NCBI GenBank assembly: GCA_021784595.1
Contig: JAJYHT010000073.1
Span: 1-60,525, forward strand
Length of the DNA: 60,525 nt
Direction of reading: 5' to 3'
Source of the DNA: Bacillota bacterium
GTDB lineage: Bacteria > Bacillota > Sulfobacillia > Sulfobacillales > Sulfobacillaceae
Shown here: piece by piece, positions 42,544 through 53,610 of the stretch
How positions within the stretch are numbered: the stretch's first letter is position 1
Layout of the letters: every line of letters starts with the position of its first letter
The notes under the pieces: model-generated
Told to the model about the DNA's origin: nothing
Database searches by the model: none
What the model saw: only the letters and a program-made list of their open reading frames with translations
Program-made: the position numbers and the translations under genes

Positions 42544-42907
42544 TTGTCTCTAGCACCACCATTGCAACCGAAAACTGCCGTTCATGCGTCATAGAAAGCC
42601 AAATATAGGCTCCTCGCTCGACTAGCCAGTCATTTAATCCACCCTTGACCTCGATCCGAGGTTTTTGGTAAGGACGCCGTATAACTTCGATGTCCACCCA
42701 GCGGCTGCCGTGTATGCCGCCACAAGCCTTGATCAAAGCTTCTTTCGCTGCGAATCGCGCGGCCCACCGTTGCACAGTCAAAGGCCCCGTGCCCACGCTT
42801 TGTTGTTCCCGTTCTGAAAATAAGCGCCCGATGGCACGGGGCGTCCTTTTCAACAAACGCGCCATCCGGGCGTTTTCCGTTGCATCCACGCCAATCCCTA
42901 AAATCAC
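42521..42907 (-). CDS. acpS: holo-[acyl-carrier-protein] synthase
   Basis: Attaches 4'-phosphopantetheine to ACP. It shows ILGIGVDATENARMARLL at the N-terminus (Mg-binding Asp), RWAARFAAKEALIKACG near 58 with the Glu, and WLSMTHERQFSVAMVVLE. The GTG at 42907 overlaps the methyltransferase stop as GTGA, giving 128 residues. The longer frame to 42931 adds only RCRGKP-type residues. Order methyltransferase, acpS, nnrDE, alr is tightly overlapped. Confidence 0.92.
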   Translation of the reverse strand: MILGIGVDATENARMARLLKRTPRAIGRLFSEREQQSVGTGPLTVQRWAARFAAKEALIKACGGIHGSRWVDIEVIRRPYQKPRIEVKGGLNDWLVERGAYIWLSMTHERQFSVAMVVLETNDDRNLD

Positions 42908-43491
42908 AGGTTTTCCACGACAACGCCCCAAGTCACCGGCCCGGGTTGAAAACGGGACACTTCTTGAAAACCTTGCTCCGCTACCTCGGCTACCACTTCA
43001 TCCACAGTAAATCGATGCTCCAGGGGCGGACCAAATTCTGTTAGTTCTTTTCTCCAATCTACAATGATCCAGAGGCCGCCGGACCGAAGAATGCGTTTCA
43101 TTTCTGCAATCGCTTGCTGACGATGCTGCACCTCATGATACATGGTGTGCCATAAGACCCGATCCACCGAATCTGAGGCCAGGTGGGTATCCTCTGCTGA
43201 CCCAGCCATCACCTCTAATTGGAACAATCCGGCAGCGTTGGCCCGATGCGTCAATTCGTCTCGGGCCGCAGGGCTGGGATCCACTGCCAGCACCAAACCG
43301 GCGCGTCCCACAGCCACTGCCAACGGCAAGCTAAAGTATCCCAAACCCGCTCCCACATCAGCCACCCGCATGCCTTCGGTGGCATCCACCGCTTCTAGGA
43401 CTGGCGCCTTAGGCATCATTTGCTCTCGTTCAGGATTATCCAACCGCAACAAATGCTCTCGATCGTGCCACATCTCATAATCGCGATGCAT
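42904..43491 (-). CDS. class I SAM-dependent methyltransferase
   Basis: A 195-residue methyltransferase. The SAM site VADVGAGLGYFSLPLA is near 43, followed by LAVDPSPAARDEL and DSVDRVLWHTMYHEVQ. ILRSGGLWIIVDWRKE is the post-motif. It resembles the small UbiE-like methyltransferases that often flank stress genes; the substrate is unknown. ATG at 43491 behind AGGGGGG. First gene of the acpS-nnrDE-alr group. Confidence 0.84.
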   Translation of the reverse strand: MHRDYEMWHDREHLLRLDNPEREQMMPKAPVLEAVDATEGMRVADVGAGLGYFSLPLAVAVGRAGLVLAVDPSPAARDELTHRANAAGLFQLEVMAGSAEDTHLASDSVDRVLWHTMYHEVQHRQQAIAEMKRILRSGGLWIIVDWRKELTEFGPPLEHRFTVDEVVAEVAEQGFQEVSRFQPGPVTWGVVVENL

Positions 43492-43780
43492 CTTATCCCC
43501 CCTGACATAGCTGTTATTATTATAGCGAATTTTTTCCAGCAACCTAGCATCGAACCATCGACTTATTTTCCGTACTTAAAGGATTCCGGTGGGACTCATC
43601 TAATATCTAGTGGATTTGTTGGTAGCCATGGCGATTGCGTCCGCGACTGGAATTCTTGCCATCTTGGAGAGGACGGTGACCAAACACGCGCTTGTTAGGT
43701 GCGCTACCCCAAGAGCTAGTTTCGCCCAATCGCGTGAGATGCTTTTTACCGTCTCGCCTAGGCTTGAGTAATCCCTGGTT
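43492..43780. other. no recognisable gene
   Basis: A 63-codon minus-strand frame (43600-43791) exists but matches nothing I know and has no ribosome-binding site. The region should hold the methyltransferase promoter on the minus strand and precedes the cytochrome c promoter. Confidence 0.4.
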
Positions 43781-43836: not shown

Positions 43837-44256
43837 ATGAACCAATCGCTAGTTGCAAAAGGGAGCGTGATTTTTTTGAAGGCGATAAAGGGTCTCTTGA
43901 TCATAGTGGGCAGTTCTCTATGGCTCTGTGCCTGTGGTGCCAGCCCCAAGGCATCACAGACTCCTCACCTTTTTGCCCCAGCCGCTGCCATTGCGGCCGG
44001 CAATGCACTATATCAACACACTTGCGCCTATTGCCACGGAACAAACGGGCAAGGCGGAGTACGATTTAACGCGCCCCGCCTGTGGGGTCCCGGCAATGTC
44101 GTTCAAACAGGAGTCTTCAATTCGGAAGATGCTCTTGCCGCATTCATCAAGCGTGCTATGCCTGCTCAAGCTGTTAACGGAGTCAACCCCGGAGGATTAA
44201 CTGAAATCCAGGCCCATCAAGTTGCCCAGTACATACTTTCCAAGAATCGCGGTTAA
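43837..44256 (+). CDS. lipoprotein monohaem cytochrome c
   Basis: A 139-residue exported cytochrome c. A basic, hydrophobic signal (LLIIVGSSLWLCAC) ends in a lipobox-like Cys31/Cys33. The haem motif CAYCH is at 63-67, RLWGPGNVV follows, and Met108 in RAMPAQ is the likely axial ligand. It would be anchored outside the membrane and carry single electrons. The ATG at 43837 has only a weak ribosome-binding site. A TTG at 43876, ten bases after AGGGAG, gives a more typical lipoprotein signal. Its 3' end overlaps the facing DUF1540 gene by four bases. Confidence 0.85.
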   Translation: MNQSLVAKGSVIFLKAIKGLLIIVGSSLWLCACGASPKASQTPHLFAPAAAIAAGNALYQHTCAYCHGTNGQGGVRFNAPRLWGPGNVVQTGVFNSEDALAAFIKRAMPAQAVNGVNPGGLTEIQAHQVAQYILSKNRG

Positions 44257-44642
44257 TGCGGTCCAGCGACAAAAGTGGCACAGTTTGTATCCTGACAATC
44301 CTGGGCGTGTGAGCCCGTTATCCGTATGGCAGTGGCCGAACAACCGTCTCCATCTTCCCAGTACTTGCATGTTTCTATCACACAGGTGACGTCAGGAGTA
44401 AGCTGAGTTCCCGCAGCAAAGGGCTCGGCTACGGTCCCCCCCCAATTTACGTTGTCCAAGGAGCTTACCATATTGCTGATCGAAGCTCGACCAATAAACG
44501 TCTTGCACTCTGACTCATCGATCGATTGCGCCATTTGTCCTGCACTTTGGTTTAAAACATCAATTTTACCGGCTGCGCATAGACTTTGCGGCATCCAATG
44601 GGCACAGGTGCTTACCGAACATTCCACTTGCGGCGAGTTCAT
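44253..44642 (-). CDS. tandem DUF1540 protein
   Basis: A 129-residue protein with two DUF1540 units. Unit one has VECSVSTCAHW, SLCAAGKIDV and ESECKTFI. Unit two has VTCVIETCKYWEDGDGCSATAIRI and DTNCATFV. Each has four cysteines spaced as in the single-domain protein at 4917-5093. They are probably metal-bound or disulfide-linked; function is unknown. The ATG at 44642 is used, nine bases after GAGAGG; the frame extends 67 codons upstream without similarity. It lies on the opposite strand between two cytochrome genes. Confidence 0.75.
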   Translation of the reverse strand: MNSPQVECSVSTCAHWMPQSLCAAGKIDVLNQSAGQMAQSIDESECKTFIGRASISNMVSSLDNVNWGGTVAEPFAAGTQLTPDVTCVIETCKYWEDGDGCSATAIRITGSHAQDCQDTNCATFVAGPH

Positions 44643-44852
44643 CCTCCACATCCTCTCTGAGTACTGGTAACGGCGCATAGTGTATGAATTGTCGTCGCGT
44701 CCTATACGCCAGAGCAAGAGCCAATCCAGACTCGTATTGTTTGAACAAAAAGTCCGGGTCCAGTCACAAACCCATAAGATTTTTACCGCGTTTACCAATC
44801 GAGATACCGCAGTATCTACGACAGTTAACTCCTTTCCGTTCAACTTTCATCG
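44643..44852. other. intergenic region between divergent DUF1540 and cytochrome genes
   Basis: No gene recognised on either strand. It should contain the promoter of the tandem DUF1540 gene; I could not pick convincing hexamers. Confidence 0.4.
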
Positions 44853-44861
44853 TGCTATACT
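44853..44861 (+). promoter_or_regulatory. extended -10 promoter of the cytochrome c-sulfocyanin gene
   Basis: TGCTATACT is an extended -10 element with no good -35. Transcription would start near 44868 and give a leader of roughly 168 bases before the GTG at 45036. Confidence 0.5.
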
Positions 44862-44867
44862 GCAGAC

Positions 44868-45035
44868 AAAGTCCAGAGGGATACCTTGGTTACAAACCGA
44901 TAGGGATCTGTTCGAATATTATGATTATTCCATCGGTTTGTGGCTCCTGAGCGCAGTACATAGCCTAAGGGCAACACCGCTAGTGCGCCCTTCGCGTACC
45001 CCTCCATGACGCAAACTAATTGAGGAGGGATTATT
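44868..45035 (+). promoter_or_regulatory. structured 5' leader with Shine-Dalgarno occlusion
   Basis: ACAAACCGAT (44892-44901) and ATCGGTTTGT (44932-44941) form a 10-bp perfect stem over 30 bases. AAGGGC/GCCCTT (44967-44972 and 44987-44992) can pair next. CCCTCC (45000-45005) pairs exactly with GGAGGG (45024-45029), the ribosome-binding site of the cytochrome-sulfocyanin gene. Translational regulation is inferred; no known riboswitch class was recognised. Confidence 0.45.
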
Positions 45036-45896
45036 GTGCGATTTCGCACACGGTGGGGCGTGGTATTGGGACTGGCCGGATTTGGTTTATTCGCCGCCGG
45101 CTGTGGAGCTCAAACCACCTATACGCCGCCGACGTTTCCCCCAGGCAATGCTGTTGCTGGCGAACAGTTATATACCACCACATGTGCCGCCTGTCACGGT
45201 CCGACTGCGGAAGGAACTTCTAGTGTGGCACCACCGTTATGGCAACAAGGTGGAGTTTCCAGTCCTAATTACTCCAGTATGACTACCTTAACCGCATTCA
45301 TTTATCAAAACATGCCGAAATCGGCGCCTGGCAGTCTTAGCAAGCAACAAGCAGCAGATGTCGCGACGTTCGTTTGGGGATTGGATGGCAAACTCGGCTC
45401 CAGCACAGCTAGTCAGATGCTGGGCATGTTGACAAAAACCTCTGCGCCACCGCCTGCTACGCCAACGACCACGGTGACCTCGTCAAAATTCCTATCGGTC
45501 AACACCAGCGCCAAAACCGCGACCTTAAGCCTGATCGCTGGATACAACACGTCAAATGACGGCGGCTTTAATTTCGATGGAGGTTATGACGGAAACATGA
45601 CCGTAACCATTCCGGTGGGGTACAACGTGACCGTCAATTTCAAGAATAGTGCGCAGATTCCTCATTCGGCTGCTGTCATTGGTCCGACTGGAAATAATGC
45701 CACGGGTCCCATTATTTCCGGCGCAACCACGCCTAATCCCGTCTTGGGCACGGCTCCGGGAGGAACAGCAACGTTTAGTTTTACACCTACTAAAGCAGGA
45801 TCCTATCGCATCGCGTGTCTTTTCCCAGGCCATTTGGTGCTGGGCATGTATATTAACCTCAAGGTGGTCTCCAGCGGAACCCCCTCGATGTCTTAA
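45036..45896 (+). CDS. lipoprotein cytochrome c-sulfocyanin fusion
   Basis: A 286-residue exported electron carrier with two redox domains. The signal peptide ends in a lipobox (FAAGC, Cys23). The cytochrome c domain (about 38-120) has CAACH at 50-54 and Met93 as likely axial ligand. A Pro/Thr-rich linker (130-150) follows. The cupredoxin domain (about 151-278) matches sulfocyanin (SoxE): GGFNFDGGYDGNMTVTIP, and type 1 copper ligands His210 (IPHSAAV), Cys261, His266 (ACLFPGH) and Met271 (VLGMYI). It could pass electrons from Fe(II) or a bc-type complex to a terminal oxidase. GTG start after GAGGAGGG. Confidence 0.88.
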   Translation: MRFRTRWGVVLGLAGFGLFAAGCGAQTTYTPPTFPPGNAVAGEQLYTTTCAACHGPTAEGTSSVAPPLWQQGGVSSPNYSSMTTLTAFIYQNMPKSAPGSLSKQQAADVATFVWGLDGKLGSSTASQMLGMLTKTSAPPPATPTTTVTSSKFLSVNTSAKTATLSLIAGYNTSNDGGFNFDGGYDGNMTVTIPVGYNVTVNFKNSAQIPHSAAVIGPTGNNATGPIISGATTPNPVLGTAPGGTATFSFTPTKAGSYRIACLFPGHLVLGMYINLKVVSSGTPSMS

Positions 45897-45910: not shown

Positions 45911-46831
45911 ATGGGGTCAGGTTCTACACGAAAAATATTATGGTATGGCGTCGGCGCCTTTTGGTTGCTCGACGCCTTGTTGCAAATGCAGCCCCATATG
46001 TTTTCCTCCGATTTAGTCACCAGCATTATGATGCCCAACGCATTCAACCAACCCAAGTGGGTCACCGATTCGATTGATTGGATGCTAAATCTGCTGATTA
46101 CCCATAACCTGGCCCTTTTCAATTGGTTTATTGCCGTTATCCAGTTGGTTATTGGCGCGCTGATTCTCACCGGATATCGCCGTCGCTGGGGCACTCTCGG
46201 CTTATGGCTTTCCCTGATCTGGGGAGTGGGCGTATGGTACTTTGGAGAAGGTCTAGGCACCATCCTTACCGGCCAATCCACCTATCTTACCGGAGGACCG
46301 GGTTCTGTTGTCCTATACATGGCCATCGCCATTATCCTGCTCTTGCCCAAAAACATTTGGCATGATCGAACCGGCCAACGGCCATTGGAAATTCTTCGCA
46401 ACACCCTAGTCGGATTATGGTGCATAGGCGCAGTATTGCAAGCTCTTCCAGGATTTTGGACCCATCATGGATTGTGGACTCAAATTTATGGATCGGCGGT
46501 CATGACTCCCCAATCATGGGTGACCGCTCCCATTTATGCCGTGGCCCATCTCACCTTGTACCACACCGCTTTGTGGAATCTCTTATTTATCGTCATTATG
46601 CTATTGGAGGCCGCCGGCCTCTGGTTCCGATGGGGCCCATGGTTTTATTGGGCTAGCGGCCTATGGCTGATATTCATGTTTTGGATTGGGGAAAACTTAG
46701 GCATGATCCTAAGCGGCATTACCACCGATCTCAATACCGCTCCCTTATGGGCTTTGATGATGTGGCCCCTTTATCGAGAATCCGTGCGGCTACATCGCCC
46801 GCTGACCTCCCACATACACCTCCTTGACTAA
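45911..46831 (+). CDS. duplicated multi-helix membrane protein
   Basis: A 306-residue integral membrane protein made of two similar halves of about four helices each (roughly 10-145 and 160-295). Matching landmarks are FWLLDALLQMQP and WCIGAVLQALPG; HNLALFNWFIAVIQ and HTALWNLLFIVIM; RRRWGTLGLWLSLIWGVGVW and FRWGPWFYWASGLWLIFMFW; WYFGEGLGTIL and FWIGENLGMIL. The four-helix unit recalls DoxX/DoxD-like proteins, some of which feed electrons to quinones; this is a weak resemblance. It follows the cytochrome-sulfocyanin gene by 14 bases and is probably its partner. It overlaps hutI by 42 bases tail-to-tail. Confidence 0.75.
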   Translation: MGSGSTRKILWYGVGAFWLLDALLQMQPHMFSSDLVTSIMMPNAFNQPKWVTDSIDWMLNLLITHNLALFNWFIAVIQLVIGALILTGYRRRWGTLGLWLSLIWGVGVWYFGEGLGTILTGQSTYLTGGPGSVVLYMAIAIILLLPKNIWHDRTGQRPLEILRNTLVGLWCIGAVLQALPGFWTHHGLWTQIYGSAVMTPQSWVTAPIYAVAHLTLYHTALWNLLFIVIMLLEAAGLWFRWGPWFYWASGLWLIFMFWIGENLGMILSGITTDLNTAPLWALMMWPLYRESVRLHRPLTSHIHLLD

Positions 46832-48013
46832 ATTGACTCCATAGTGATAACAGGGGTAGCAGTAGTCGTCGGTATCCCATATTACAAAATCTGCGAGTTT
46901 GCCCGGAACCAGCGCCCCCCGGTCATCGAGCGCCAACGCTCTGGCCCCCATTATGGTCACGCCAGCCCACACCTCTTCCGGGAGCAGGTTGAGCCAGGAG
47001 GCGGCCCACGGCATCAACATCGACAGCGCCTCGGTAGGAGAAGAGCCAGGGTTGCCGTCAGATCCAATTGCCACGCTCAAATTGGCCTCGATCATTGACC
47101 GGGCGGGAGGCATTCCTCCATGGTGCAGATATCCGGCGGTCCCCGGCAGCAGAACCGCCGTAGTTCCCGCTTGGGCCATGGCCGAAATCCCTGCTTGACC
47201 CGTCATGGCGCAATGATCTGCGCTAACCGCCCCCAACCATGCCGCCAACTGGGCTCCGTGGCCATCCGCCAATTCATCGACATGTAGCTTAACTTTAAAT
47301 CCCAGGGCTTGCGCAGCTGTAAGATAGCTCCGCGACTCTTCCACACTAAATACTCCTGGCTCACAAAATATATCGACAAAGTCCGCCAAGTCACCAATCT
47401 TCGGTAGTAGTTCTTGGGCCAACCACGCAAGATATTCTGCGCTTTGCCCCCGATATTCCTCTGGTACCGCATGGGCTGCCAAACAAGTGGACACCAAGCG
47501 GGTCGGCGCTGTATTCTGCACGCTGCGCAACAGCTGCAACATCCGGTATTCACCACTGACGGTCAGATCATAACCCGTCTTGACTTCCACGGTGGTAGAA
47601 CCGTGCTGCAAGGCGCACGCCAGCCGCTGTTGCAGCAAGTAGGTCAGTTCCTCGTCTGATGCTTGTCGTGTCTTTTGCACCGTGGACAAGATCCCTCCGC
47701 CCGCATTCAAAATCTCCAAGTAGGTCTTGCCCTTGGCGCGCATGGCAACCTCGTCTGCCCGATGACCGCTGTACAATAAGTGAGTATGCGCATCCACCAA
47801 TCCGGGACTGATCAGGCACCCCCCACAATCGACCACTGGACCAGTCCATCGGGAGGGCTCTTCATGGGCAGAACCGATCGATGCCACCCGCCCCTGGTCC
47901 ACGATCAGGAAAGCTCTGGGAATCATGGCAAAAGCGTCTTTTTGATTTTGAGCCAGGGGATTCATGGTCAACAGTTGACCGATGTTGCGATATAAGGTAG
48001 CGTCTCCGATCAT
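46790..48013 (-). CDS. hutI: imidazolonepropionase
   Basis: Opens the imidazolone ring to N-formimino-glutamate, step three of histidine breakdown. The 407 residues have SPGLVDAHTHLLYSG near 75 (metal His), EVKTGYDLTVSGEYRML, CLAAHAVPEEYRG, KLHVDELADGHGAQLAAWLGAVSADH and AIGSDGNPGSSPTEAL, all HutI features. The ATG at 48013 lies ten bases after GAGGAGG and 5 bases after the ftcD stop. hutH and hutU are not in the window. Confidence 0.93.
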   Translation of the reverse strand: MIGDATLYRNIGQLLTMNPLAQNQKDAFAMIPRAFLIVDQGRVASIGSAHEEPSRWTGPVVDCGGCLISPGLVDAHTHLLYSGHRADEVAMRAKGKTYLEILNAGGGILSTVQKTRQASDEELTYLLQQRLACALQHGSTTVEVKTGYDLTVSGEYRMLQLLRSVQNTAPTRLVSTCLAAHAVPEEYRGQSAEYLAWLAQELLPKIGDLADFVDIFCEPGVFSVEESRSYLTAAQALGFKVKLHVDELADGHGAQLAAWLGAVSADHCAMTGQAGISAMAQAGTTAVLLPGTAGYLHHGGMPPARSMIEANLSVAIGSDGNPGSSPTEALSMLMPWAASWLNLLPEEVWAGVTIMGARALALDDRGALVPGKLADFVIWDTDDYCYPCYHYGVNLVKEVYVGGQRAM

Positions 48014-48017
48014 CTGT

Positions 48018-48959
48018 TTAGGCCTCCTCTGTTCGACCGCGCATCTGCGGCTGAACAGCCTTTTGGGGAGCGAATTGGTCTCCCGCCAGAGCCAACTCCA
48101 CCACATGTGCAGCGTCGAAATCCGCAAGTTGCAAATAATATTGCACGGTATCGATTACTGCCTGGGCTGGCAAAAAGCCCACCAGTTCCGAATGCGCCAC
48201 CAAAACTCCATAACGGCCCGCTTCGCGCCGAACCAATTCCAAGGCTTTAGGCAATGTCGTCTTGGGATAGTCTACTAAATTCATTGACACCTGCACCCGA
48301 CCGCGGTGAACAGTATCCATGGCCAACGCCTTGACGCCGATTAAGCCGCCGCTCGAACCGCGAACCGCTTTCGCAATTCGTTGGGCAACCGCTAATTCCT
48401 CTGTGTTCAAAAATACATTGAAGGCAATCAGCGGCCACCGTGCGCCAATAATGGCGGCTCCCGCGGTGGGATGGGGCCTGGGGGGACCGAAGTCCGGAGG
48501 GTCTTCTGCCATACGGTGCGCTAATCCTTCGAACTGTCCACGCCGCACATCTGCGAGATTTTTTCGCTCAGGTTGACGGGCAGCGTGCTCGTAAAGATAG
48601 ACTGGCAGCCCCAATTCGCTGGCCACCTGTTCTCCTAGACGCCGCGCTAAGTCAATCGCATAACTCATGGGCGTGGTGCCGAGGGGAACAAAGGGCACCA
48701 CGTCTACCGCACCCAATCGCGGATGAGTTCCGACTTGATGAGTCAAATCAATATGCTGCAAAGCGACCTTTATGGTTTCGAATATTGCCCCCAGCACTGC
48801 TTCGCCATCTCCAGCCACGGTAAGCACAGAACGGTTATGGTCCACGTCGCCCTCTAATCCGAGTACTTTGACATCGTCTTGGGAAGCTGCCTCAAGGATT
48901 TTTTGCAGCGTTACAATATTGTTTCCCTCCGAAAAGTTCGGAATCGATTCAACCCACAT
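48018..48959 (-). CDS. ftcD: glutamate formimidoyltransferase
   Basis: Transfers the formimino group of formimino-glutamate to tetrahydrofolate, using the product of HutI. The 313 residues show SIPNFSEGNN at the start, DVDHNRSVLTVAGD near 38, THPRLGAVDVVPFVPLG near 78 and PVYLYEHAA. GARWPLIAFNVFLNT, VSMNLVDYPKT and the ending AHSELVGFLPAQA are also present. The cyclodeaminase domain of the mammalian enzyme is absent, as usual in bacteria. It is coupled to hutI downstream and starts three bases after the molybdopterin gene. Confidence 0.94.
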   Translation of the reverse strand: MWVESIPNFSEGNNIVTLQKILEAASQDDVKVLGLEGDVDHNRSVLTVAGDGEAVLGAIFETIKVALQHIDLTHQVGTHPRLGAVDVVPFVPLGTTPMSYAIDLARRLGEQVASELGLPVYLYEHAARQPERKNLADVRRGQFEGLAHRMAEDPPDFGPPRPHPTAGAAIIGARWPLIAFNVFLNTEELAVAQRIAKAVRGSSGGLIGVKALAMDTVHRGRVQVSMNLVDYPKTTLPKALELVRREAGRYGVLVAHSELVGFLPAQAVIDTVQYYLQLADFDAAHVVELALAGDQFAPQKAVQPQMRGRTEEA

Positions 48960-52394: not shown

Positions 52395-53610
52395 TCAGGC
52401 AGGACCGGATGGGCAGCCACCACCCATCGAACTCTCGGCCACTGTCCGTAAATTGACCGCTGCATTGACGTCGCGGTCATGATGCGTCTGACACTGCGGG
52501 CATATCCATGTCCGCACACTTAAGGACATTTTCGGGACCTTGTGCCCACACGTCGAACAGGTTTTACTGCTCGGATACCAGCGGCTCACCACGACCACCG
52601 TCTTGCCACGTTGGGCCGCCTTGTATTCTAACTGGCGGCGCAATTCTCCCAAGCCCATGTCGGCAATTGCCCTAGCAAGCTTATGGTTTTTGAGCATGCC
52701 GGCGACATGCAGATCCTCGATGGCGATGACATCGAAACGATCAACGAGATAGTGGGTCAGTTGGTGCAGGGCATCGGCCCGGATATTCGCAATCCGGGCA
52801 TGGAGCCGGGCGATGCGCCGTTGGGTTTCCCGCCTATTCTCCGACCATGGGATGTGCATTCCTTTCGGAATAGGTTTGCCGGGCTTGAGCCCGGCACCGA
52901 CGTTCGCCGCTTCCATTTGACGACTGAAGTGTTGATATAACGGGCGGAGTGTCTTCAACGCAGCGGCATAGGCTTTCGGCCCTGCAATTTTCTCGCCGGT
53001 GGAGAGTGTGGCCAATGCCGAAACCCCTAAATCCACCCCGCCCACCGCTTGGTTTTCGCGCAAGATTCGGGGAGGATCGGGAATCTCCACGGTGACACTC
53101 AAAAACCAGCGGTCAGCGGTCCGGGAGATCGTGCCATCCAGCACTTTCCCGACAAAGCGTAACGATTCGTGCATCCGCACCCAGCCCAACTGGGGAATAT
53201 GCACTGTCTGCCCTTTGACCGTGAATGGGTCGTTGGTTAACGTAACACTGTCGTGTCGGCCCTTTGTCTTAAACGTCGGATACTCCGCGAGACCGGCAAA
53301 GAAATTCTGAAACGCTTGGCCCAAGTGCATGATGGCCATTTGGGGGGGCATTCTTGGTCACCTCCAACAGCCAGGGAAAGGCCTCGTGCTTGAGCGCATT
53401 GAGTGGACGGCGCAGGGCTGCCTCGGACGGTTTCGGCAATGTGGGGTCGCCTTTCCACGCAGCATATTGCTGCTGCCATTGGTCCAAGGCCCAATAGTAG
53501 GCAAAGCGGGCGACACCCGCCGCCTTGCGGAAATACGTCTCCTGCCCATCGTGGGGATCGAGGGCGATTTTATGGGCGAGTATACCGGCCCATTTTCCAT
53601 GGCCATCAGT
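52395..53610 (-). mobile_element. IS200/IS605-type tnpB, frameshifted
   Basis: RNA-guided nuclease TnpB of an IS1341-like element with no tnpA nearby. The N-terminal part reads LAHKIALDPHDGQETYF...GVARFAYYWALDQW from 53610, without a start codon. Then VTKNAP breaks at a run of seven C (53342-53348). The remaining 318 codons (from 53351) hold MAIMHLGQAFQNFFAGLAEYPTFKTKGR, RuvC Asp in GGVDLGVSALAT, Glu in AIEDLHVAGML, the zinc finger CSTCG...CPQC and the last Asp in HDRDVNAAVNL. The nuclease core is therefore intact, but the 5' part is broken twice. Confidence 0.85.

Follow-up and report, generated by a model that had tools for sequence, protein, structure and literature searches.

A cytochrome c domain and a SoxE-type cupredoxin domain are joined in a single predicted lipoprotein encoded in the window, the whole 60,525-nt stretch of Sulfobacillales DNA that was analysed. 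From sequence comparison we are moderately confident that this fusion would act as a lipid-anchored two-centre electron carrier, linking the bc complex QcrABC to a caa3 oxidase that contains CuA and haem c. The part that stays constant in its gene slot is the N-terminal cytochrome c; in some relatives the slot encodes a dihaem protein, and this alternation suggests that copper and haem modules are swappable within a bacterial respiratory chain. The window genome assembly has 3.79 Mb in 101 contigs; the same order holds Sulfobacillus thermotolerans Kr1.

The fusion gene and its parts are as follows:
45022..45029, forward strand: Shine-Dalgarno-like GAGGAGGG, 6 nt before the GTG start of the fusion ORF (from sequence)
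45036..45896, forward strand: fusion lipoprotein ORF, 286 aa, running from signal peptide/lipobox through cytochrome c and linker to SoxE-type cupredoxin
45090..45104, forward strand: lipobox FAAGC with predicted lipidation site Cys23 (from sequence; Gly22-Cys23-Gly24 invariant among fusions)
45153..45383, forward strand: cytochrome c domain, residues 40-116 (Pfam Cytochrom_C/CBB3; helices in the model)
45183..45197, forward strand: CAACH haem c site, Cys50, Cys53 and His54 (from sequence)
45312..45314, forward strand: Met93, the candidate for distal haem ligand, unchanged across fusions and dihaem relatives
45435..45485, forward strand: Pro/Thr/Ser-rich linker, residues 134-150, differing in length between relatives
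45486..45872, forward strand: SoxE-type cupredoxin domain, residues 151-279
45663..45665, forward strand: copper ligand His210, then Ser211, which aligns with rusticyanin Ser86 (rusticyanin alignment; invariant in fusions)
45816..45848, forward strand: copper ligand loop CLFPGHLVLGM with Cys261, His266 and Met271 (rusticyanin alignment; invariant in fusions)

A preliminary description of this DNA had reported one ORF with a lipobox, a CAACH site, a candidate Met ligand, a linker and four copper ligands, and all of these are seen. By residue count the only cysteines are 23, 50, 53 and 261 and the only histidines 54, 210 and 266. The lipoprotein assignment follows from the sequence motif LFAAG-C23. 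Pfam places Cytochrom_C (PF00034) on residues 40-116 at 38.3 bits (cut-off 21.3), with one CxxCH, and SoxE (PF06525) on residues 151-279 at 58 bits (gathering score 21). Met93 aligns with the NMP/KMP methionine of the thiosulfate dehydrogenase TsdA, which we take to be the TsdA haem-2 ligand. The AlphaFold2 model, of moderate confidence (mean pLDDT 65.6), has helices over residues 39-133, an unstructured stretch at 134-148 (pLDDT <50) and a beta-sandwich from 153; its best Foldseek match is rusticyanin. A promoter and terminator scan gave sites no commoner than in shuffled sequence.

The type-1 copper site is predicted to be complete, as the preliminary description had it. In phmmer alignments His210, Cys261, His266 and Met271 pair with the rusticyanin copper ligands H85, C138, H143 and M148; CLFPGHLVLGM is set against CQIPGHAATGM and PHSA against GHSF, with the ligands and the following Ser coinciding. 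The proposed sulfocyanin-type identity stands at the level of the SoxE domain and falls short at the level of the sulfocyanin equivalog TIGR03094 (NCBIfam), where the fusion scores 58.3 bits, well under the cut-off of 168.4; against the rusticyanin equivalog TIGR03095 it scores 15.5 bits (cut-off 146.7). Judged by these profiles, the copper part is a SoxE-domain protein and not a sulfocyanin by the TIGR03094 standard. With sulfocyanin (SoxE; Sulfolobus, Ferroplasma; TIGR03094/PF06525) the fusion has in common the SoxE domain, the four type-1 copper ligands, membrane attachment and, for the fusion by co-occurrence, association with a bc-type complex and an oxidase, whereas the N-terminal cytochrome c, the lipobox and the score below the TIGR03094 cut-off set it apart. 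Rusticyanin (Acidithiobacillus) has the same ligand loop, C-x4-H-x4-M, and the same His-Ser pair but is a stand-alone periplasmic protein.

Searching for further proteins with this domain order, we found five other intact orthologues in Sulfobacillales MAGs (80% identity to the window protein in G038, 74% in G016, 47% in G002 and G003, 40-44% in G006) and one, in G007, with both halves present but split over two contig ends. Sulfobacillus benefaciens isolate AMDSBA4 is among the genomes with the fusion, as are several Bacillota MAGs. The haem and copper ligands are invariant over all fusions compared. Between the window fusion and that of G038, differences fall 46/27/158 at codon positions 1/2/3, the mark of purifying selection across the whole ORF. 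That two genes were run together by a sequencing error, one of the refutations named in the preliminary description, or by faulty assembly can be dismissed: the relatives bearing the fusion are MAGs, but five of them, separately deposited, have it intact, and the coding constraint spans the entire ORF. Beyond these fusions, the SoxE loci examined across 151 sampled genomes of the class gave no other joining of cytochrome c to SoxE, viral contigs held no relative, and in the plasmid records listed cytochrome c and SoxE were matched separately, always over less than 80% of the query.

The fusion lies in a slot whose flanks are conserved among relatives:
42904..43542, reverse strand: methyltransferase-like gene, syntenic flank (synteny)
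43837..44256, forward strand: mono-haem cytochrome c lipoprotein upstream of the fusion, akin to the second domain in the dihaem proteins
45911..46831, forward strand: polytopic membrane protein, probable operon partner, 14 nt downstream of the fusion and adjoining five of the seven fusions
46790..48959, reverse strand: imidazolonepropionase-like (46790-48127) and FTCD-like (48018-48959) genes, presumably hutI and ftcD, syntenic flank (homology, synteny)

Between the methyltransferase-like gene and the hutI/ftcD-like pair, four relatives (G009, G010, G008 and G001) carry a dihaem protein, cytochrome c-cytochrome c, with no SoxE. The two kinds of protein have the slot and the N-terminal domain in common and differ in the second domain, which is cytochrome c in one and SoxE in the other. 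The dihaem N-terminal domain groups with that of the fusion, and the dihaem second domain with the mono-haem gene 43837-44256, each with moderate tree support (87-88%); together these groupings indicate that the second module of the carrier alternates between haem c and copper.

The ∼780 nt from the mono-haem gene to the fusion (44257-45035) hold no convincing gene; a minus-strand ORF at 44253-44843 looks spurious. Homologues of the membrane protein 45911-46831 occur in all 42 Sulfobacillales genomes, in up to nine copies per genome. It has no Pfam match, even at E=5, and its model resembles the quinone-binding membrane domain of GGCX (Z 11.5) and NACHO (Z 8.8), a likeness that for a helical protein is no more than suggestive.

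The fusion has likely arisen repeatedly, to judge from the trees. A single clade of the seven fusion SoxE domains is rejected by the AU test (p=0.0098 with the copper-intact set, p=0.026 with all rows), in a SoxE tree that is weakly resolved; for the N-terminal domain one fusion clade is not rejected (p=0.26). The concatenated marker tree, which includes the qcr and cox genes, has two fusion clades with dihaem genomes between them, so that two changes between fusion and dihaem are needed. The AU tests on the SoxE clade and the marker tree count against a single fusion event; fission of solo SoxE copies from a fusion, or reversion to the dihaem form, fits too.

Co-occurrence was assessed in the 42 Sulfobacillales genomes, counting either fusion or dihaem protein as the slot gene. 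As encoded in the window genome, the bc complex QcrABC comprises a Rieske protein, cytochrome b and a haem c-bearing subunit IV, and the caa3 oxidase carries CuA together with CxxCH in COX2 (subunit II) and a further CxxCH in subunit IV; the fusion gene is in no operon with either. QcrC is found in 14 genomes, 13 of which have the slot gene, against none of the other 28 (Fisher p=5e-10, uncorrected for relatedness and so overstating the independence of related genomes); at the genus level the counts are 7/7 against 0/8. The genes also decay together. G005 has frame-shifts in qcrB, qcrC and the fusion; in G004 qcrB and qcrC are likewise frame-shifted and the slot gene is missing; G039 has neither qcr nor slot gene. 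By inspection, about three separate joint losses back the association. Some of the frame-shifts in G005 and G004 could be sequencing error, although the joint failure of several genes argues against this.

The association with the oxidase is looser. A caa3 subunit II 56-88% identical to that of the window genome belongs to every one of the seven fusion genomes, to G001, G009 and G010, and to no other of the 42 genomes. G015, a low-coverage MAG, has qcr without caa3 and has lost the SoxE part and the membrane gene; its slot keeps the cytochrome part, with the frame stopping at residue 150 and hutI ending 77 bp further on the opposite strand. In G008, qcr and the dihaem protein are present and caa3 is absent. 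Since G001, G009, G010 and G008 have no SoxE in the slot, and G008 no caa3, neither SoxE nor caa3 is obligatory. The preliminary description had the protein carrying electrons over two centres towards an oxidase; this gains indirect support, since the slot gene occurs and decays together with the bc complex and is tied less tightly to caa3. The first partner that these data indicate is the bc complex. In the paper on AMDSBA4 the bc complex is described as unusual, and subunits II and IV of a cytochrome c oxidase are reported to have CuA and CXXCH (PMC4378227); a search of that text found no mention of the fusion, and 'sulfocynanin' once, for another strain.

On the carrier reading, electrons would pass from Qcr to the haem, then to copper and on to caa3, the flexible linker letting the haem and copper domains dock in turn. 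The tethered SoxE copper domain would take the place and role of the second cytochrome c domain of the dihaem relatives. What the comparisons themselves show is ligand sets that are complete in sequence, a lipobox, conservation, the exchange of domains within the slot, and joint occurrence and decay with qcr; cofactor loading, redox activity, the direction and order of transfer, and the physical partners we infer from these. Plastocyanin and cytochrome c6 replace each other, and the copper/haem exchange in the slot can be likened to this.

A second case comes from another family of the class: in G248 and G390 a cytochrome b-subunit IV protein carries a complete-ligand SoxE domain at its C-terminus, and G364 has a partial copy. 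The two ORFs are:
L120:450-1997: cytochrome b-subunit IV-SoxE ORF
L185:2432-3979: cytochrome b-subunit IV-SoxE ORF, with a Rieske gene directly upstream (G390)

The subunit IV part aligns with window QcrC (30%, E=1e-12), which there continues into haem c; by this alignment, the sulfocyanin domain sits where the bc complex normally has haem c. More tentatively, and leaning slightly to the doubtful side, we suggest that haem c domains may have given way to sulfocyanin-type copper domains on more than one occasion, both in the bc-oxidase carrier and, in the other family, at the C-terminal end of the bc complex. This would be an exchange comparable, in respiration, to that of plastocyanin and cytochrome c6, and visible in domain architecture.

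The strongest competing account, which we consider unlikely, makes the fusion the entry point for electrons from Fe(II) oxidation, the source that the preliminary description had suggested: copper would take them, as proposed for Ferroplasma sulfocyanin, and pass them via the haem downhill to caa3 and uphill through the bc complex in reverse. Such input is plausible because neither the window genome nor its nearest relative, G038, has a rusticyanin match and their other SoxE copies are without copper ligands. Ser211 corresponds to rusticyanin Ser86, a position reported to tune potential (PMC10654088), and two S. thermosulfidooxidans SoxE genes have more transcript without a stronger iron oxidiser around (PMC6315122). 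In F. acidiphilum, sulfocyanin reportedly forms a complex with aa3 oxidase, and a Rieske-cytochrome b complex is proposed to take its electrons to quinone (PMC8280799). Against this, co-occurrence is with the bc complex, which serves organic or sulfur growth too, and the dihaem relatives have no copper in the slot. Other fusion genomes do carry rusticyanin-like genes. Rusticyanin was also considered as a partner of the fusion and rejected, its matches being scattered through genomes with and without the fusion.

It is quite improbable that the haem alone is active in electron transfer, with the copper domain a copper buffer or docking module. G015 retains the cytochrome part without SoxE and several SoxE paralogues of the order have lost their ligands, but in every fusion compared the four copper ligands are invariant.

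Haem c-cupredoxin fusions are already known as enzymes and oxidase subunits. Subunit II of caa3 oxidase has a cupredoxin fold and cytochrome c in a single chain, as the fusion does, but it has a CuA site and is a transmembrane oxidase subunit, and the window genome has a separate one besides the fusion. Three-domain haem-Cu nitrite reductases (e.g. of Ralstonia pickettii; PMC6278305) likewise tether cupredoxin to haem c in one chain, and the fusion model has structural matches to CuNiR cupredoxin domains; yet these enzymes have two cupredoxin domains, a type-2 catalytic copper and a C-terminal haem, whereas the fusion has a single cupredoxin domain and three histidines, all assigned to haem or type-1 copper, so that a NirK-c-like enzyme, with no type-2 site and no second cupredoxin domain, is ruled out as very improbable.

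In the open-access literature searched we found no description of a carrier joining cytochrome c to SoxE, of its exchange with a dihaem protein or of the cytochrome b-SoxE fusion. For electron flow between quinol, iron and oxygen in Gram-positive acidophiles, the fusion offers a concrete protein to study; the genome paper on Sulfobacillus thermotolerans states that the initial acceptors from Fe(II) are still to be found (PMC6803676). With a conserved haem-copper carrier following the bc complex, and dihaem proteins standing in that slot elsewhere, there is a natural comparison of what copper brings beyond haem, and the cytochrome b-SoxE fusion independently links sulfocyanin to the bc complex in bacteria.

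Other SoxE relatives were noted. In Sulfobacillus a homologue of the fusion-adjacent membrane protein is itself fused to a SoxE-like domain:
L116:7560-9284: membrane protein-SoxE-like ORF, copper ligands lost
L115:7192-8880: membrane protein-SoxE-like ORF, copper ligands lost

The second SoxE copy of the window genome (L048:9729-10469) has a degraded ligand loop (SLVPNDLSHGL), and G423 encodes a 534-aa protein (L184:2036-3640) with a C-terminal SoxE domain without the usual ligand pattern. Elsewhere in the window, a minus-strand ORF at 52395-53351 resembles TnpB/IS605-type transposon proteins, judged by eye from its CSTCGH...CPQC zinc motif.
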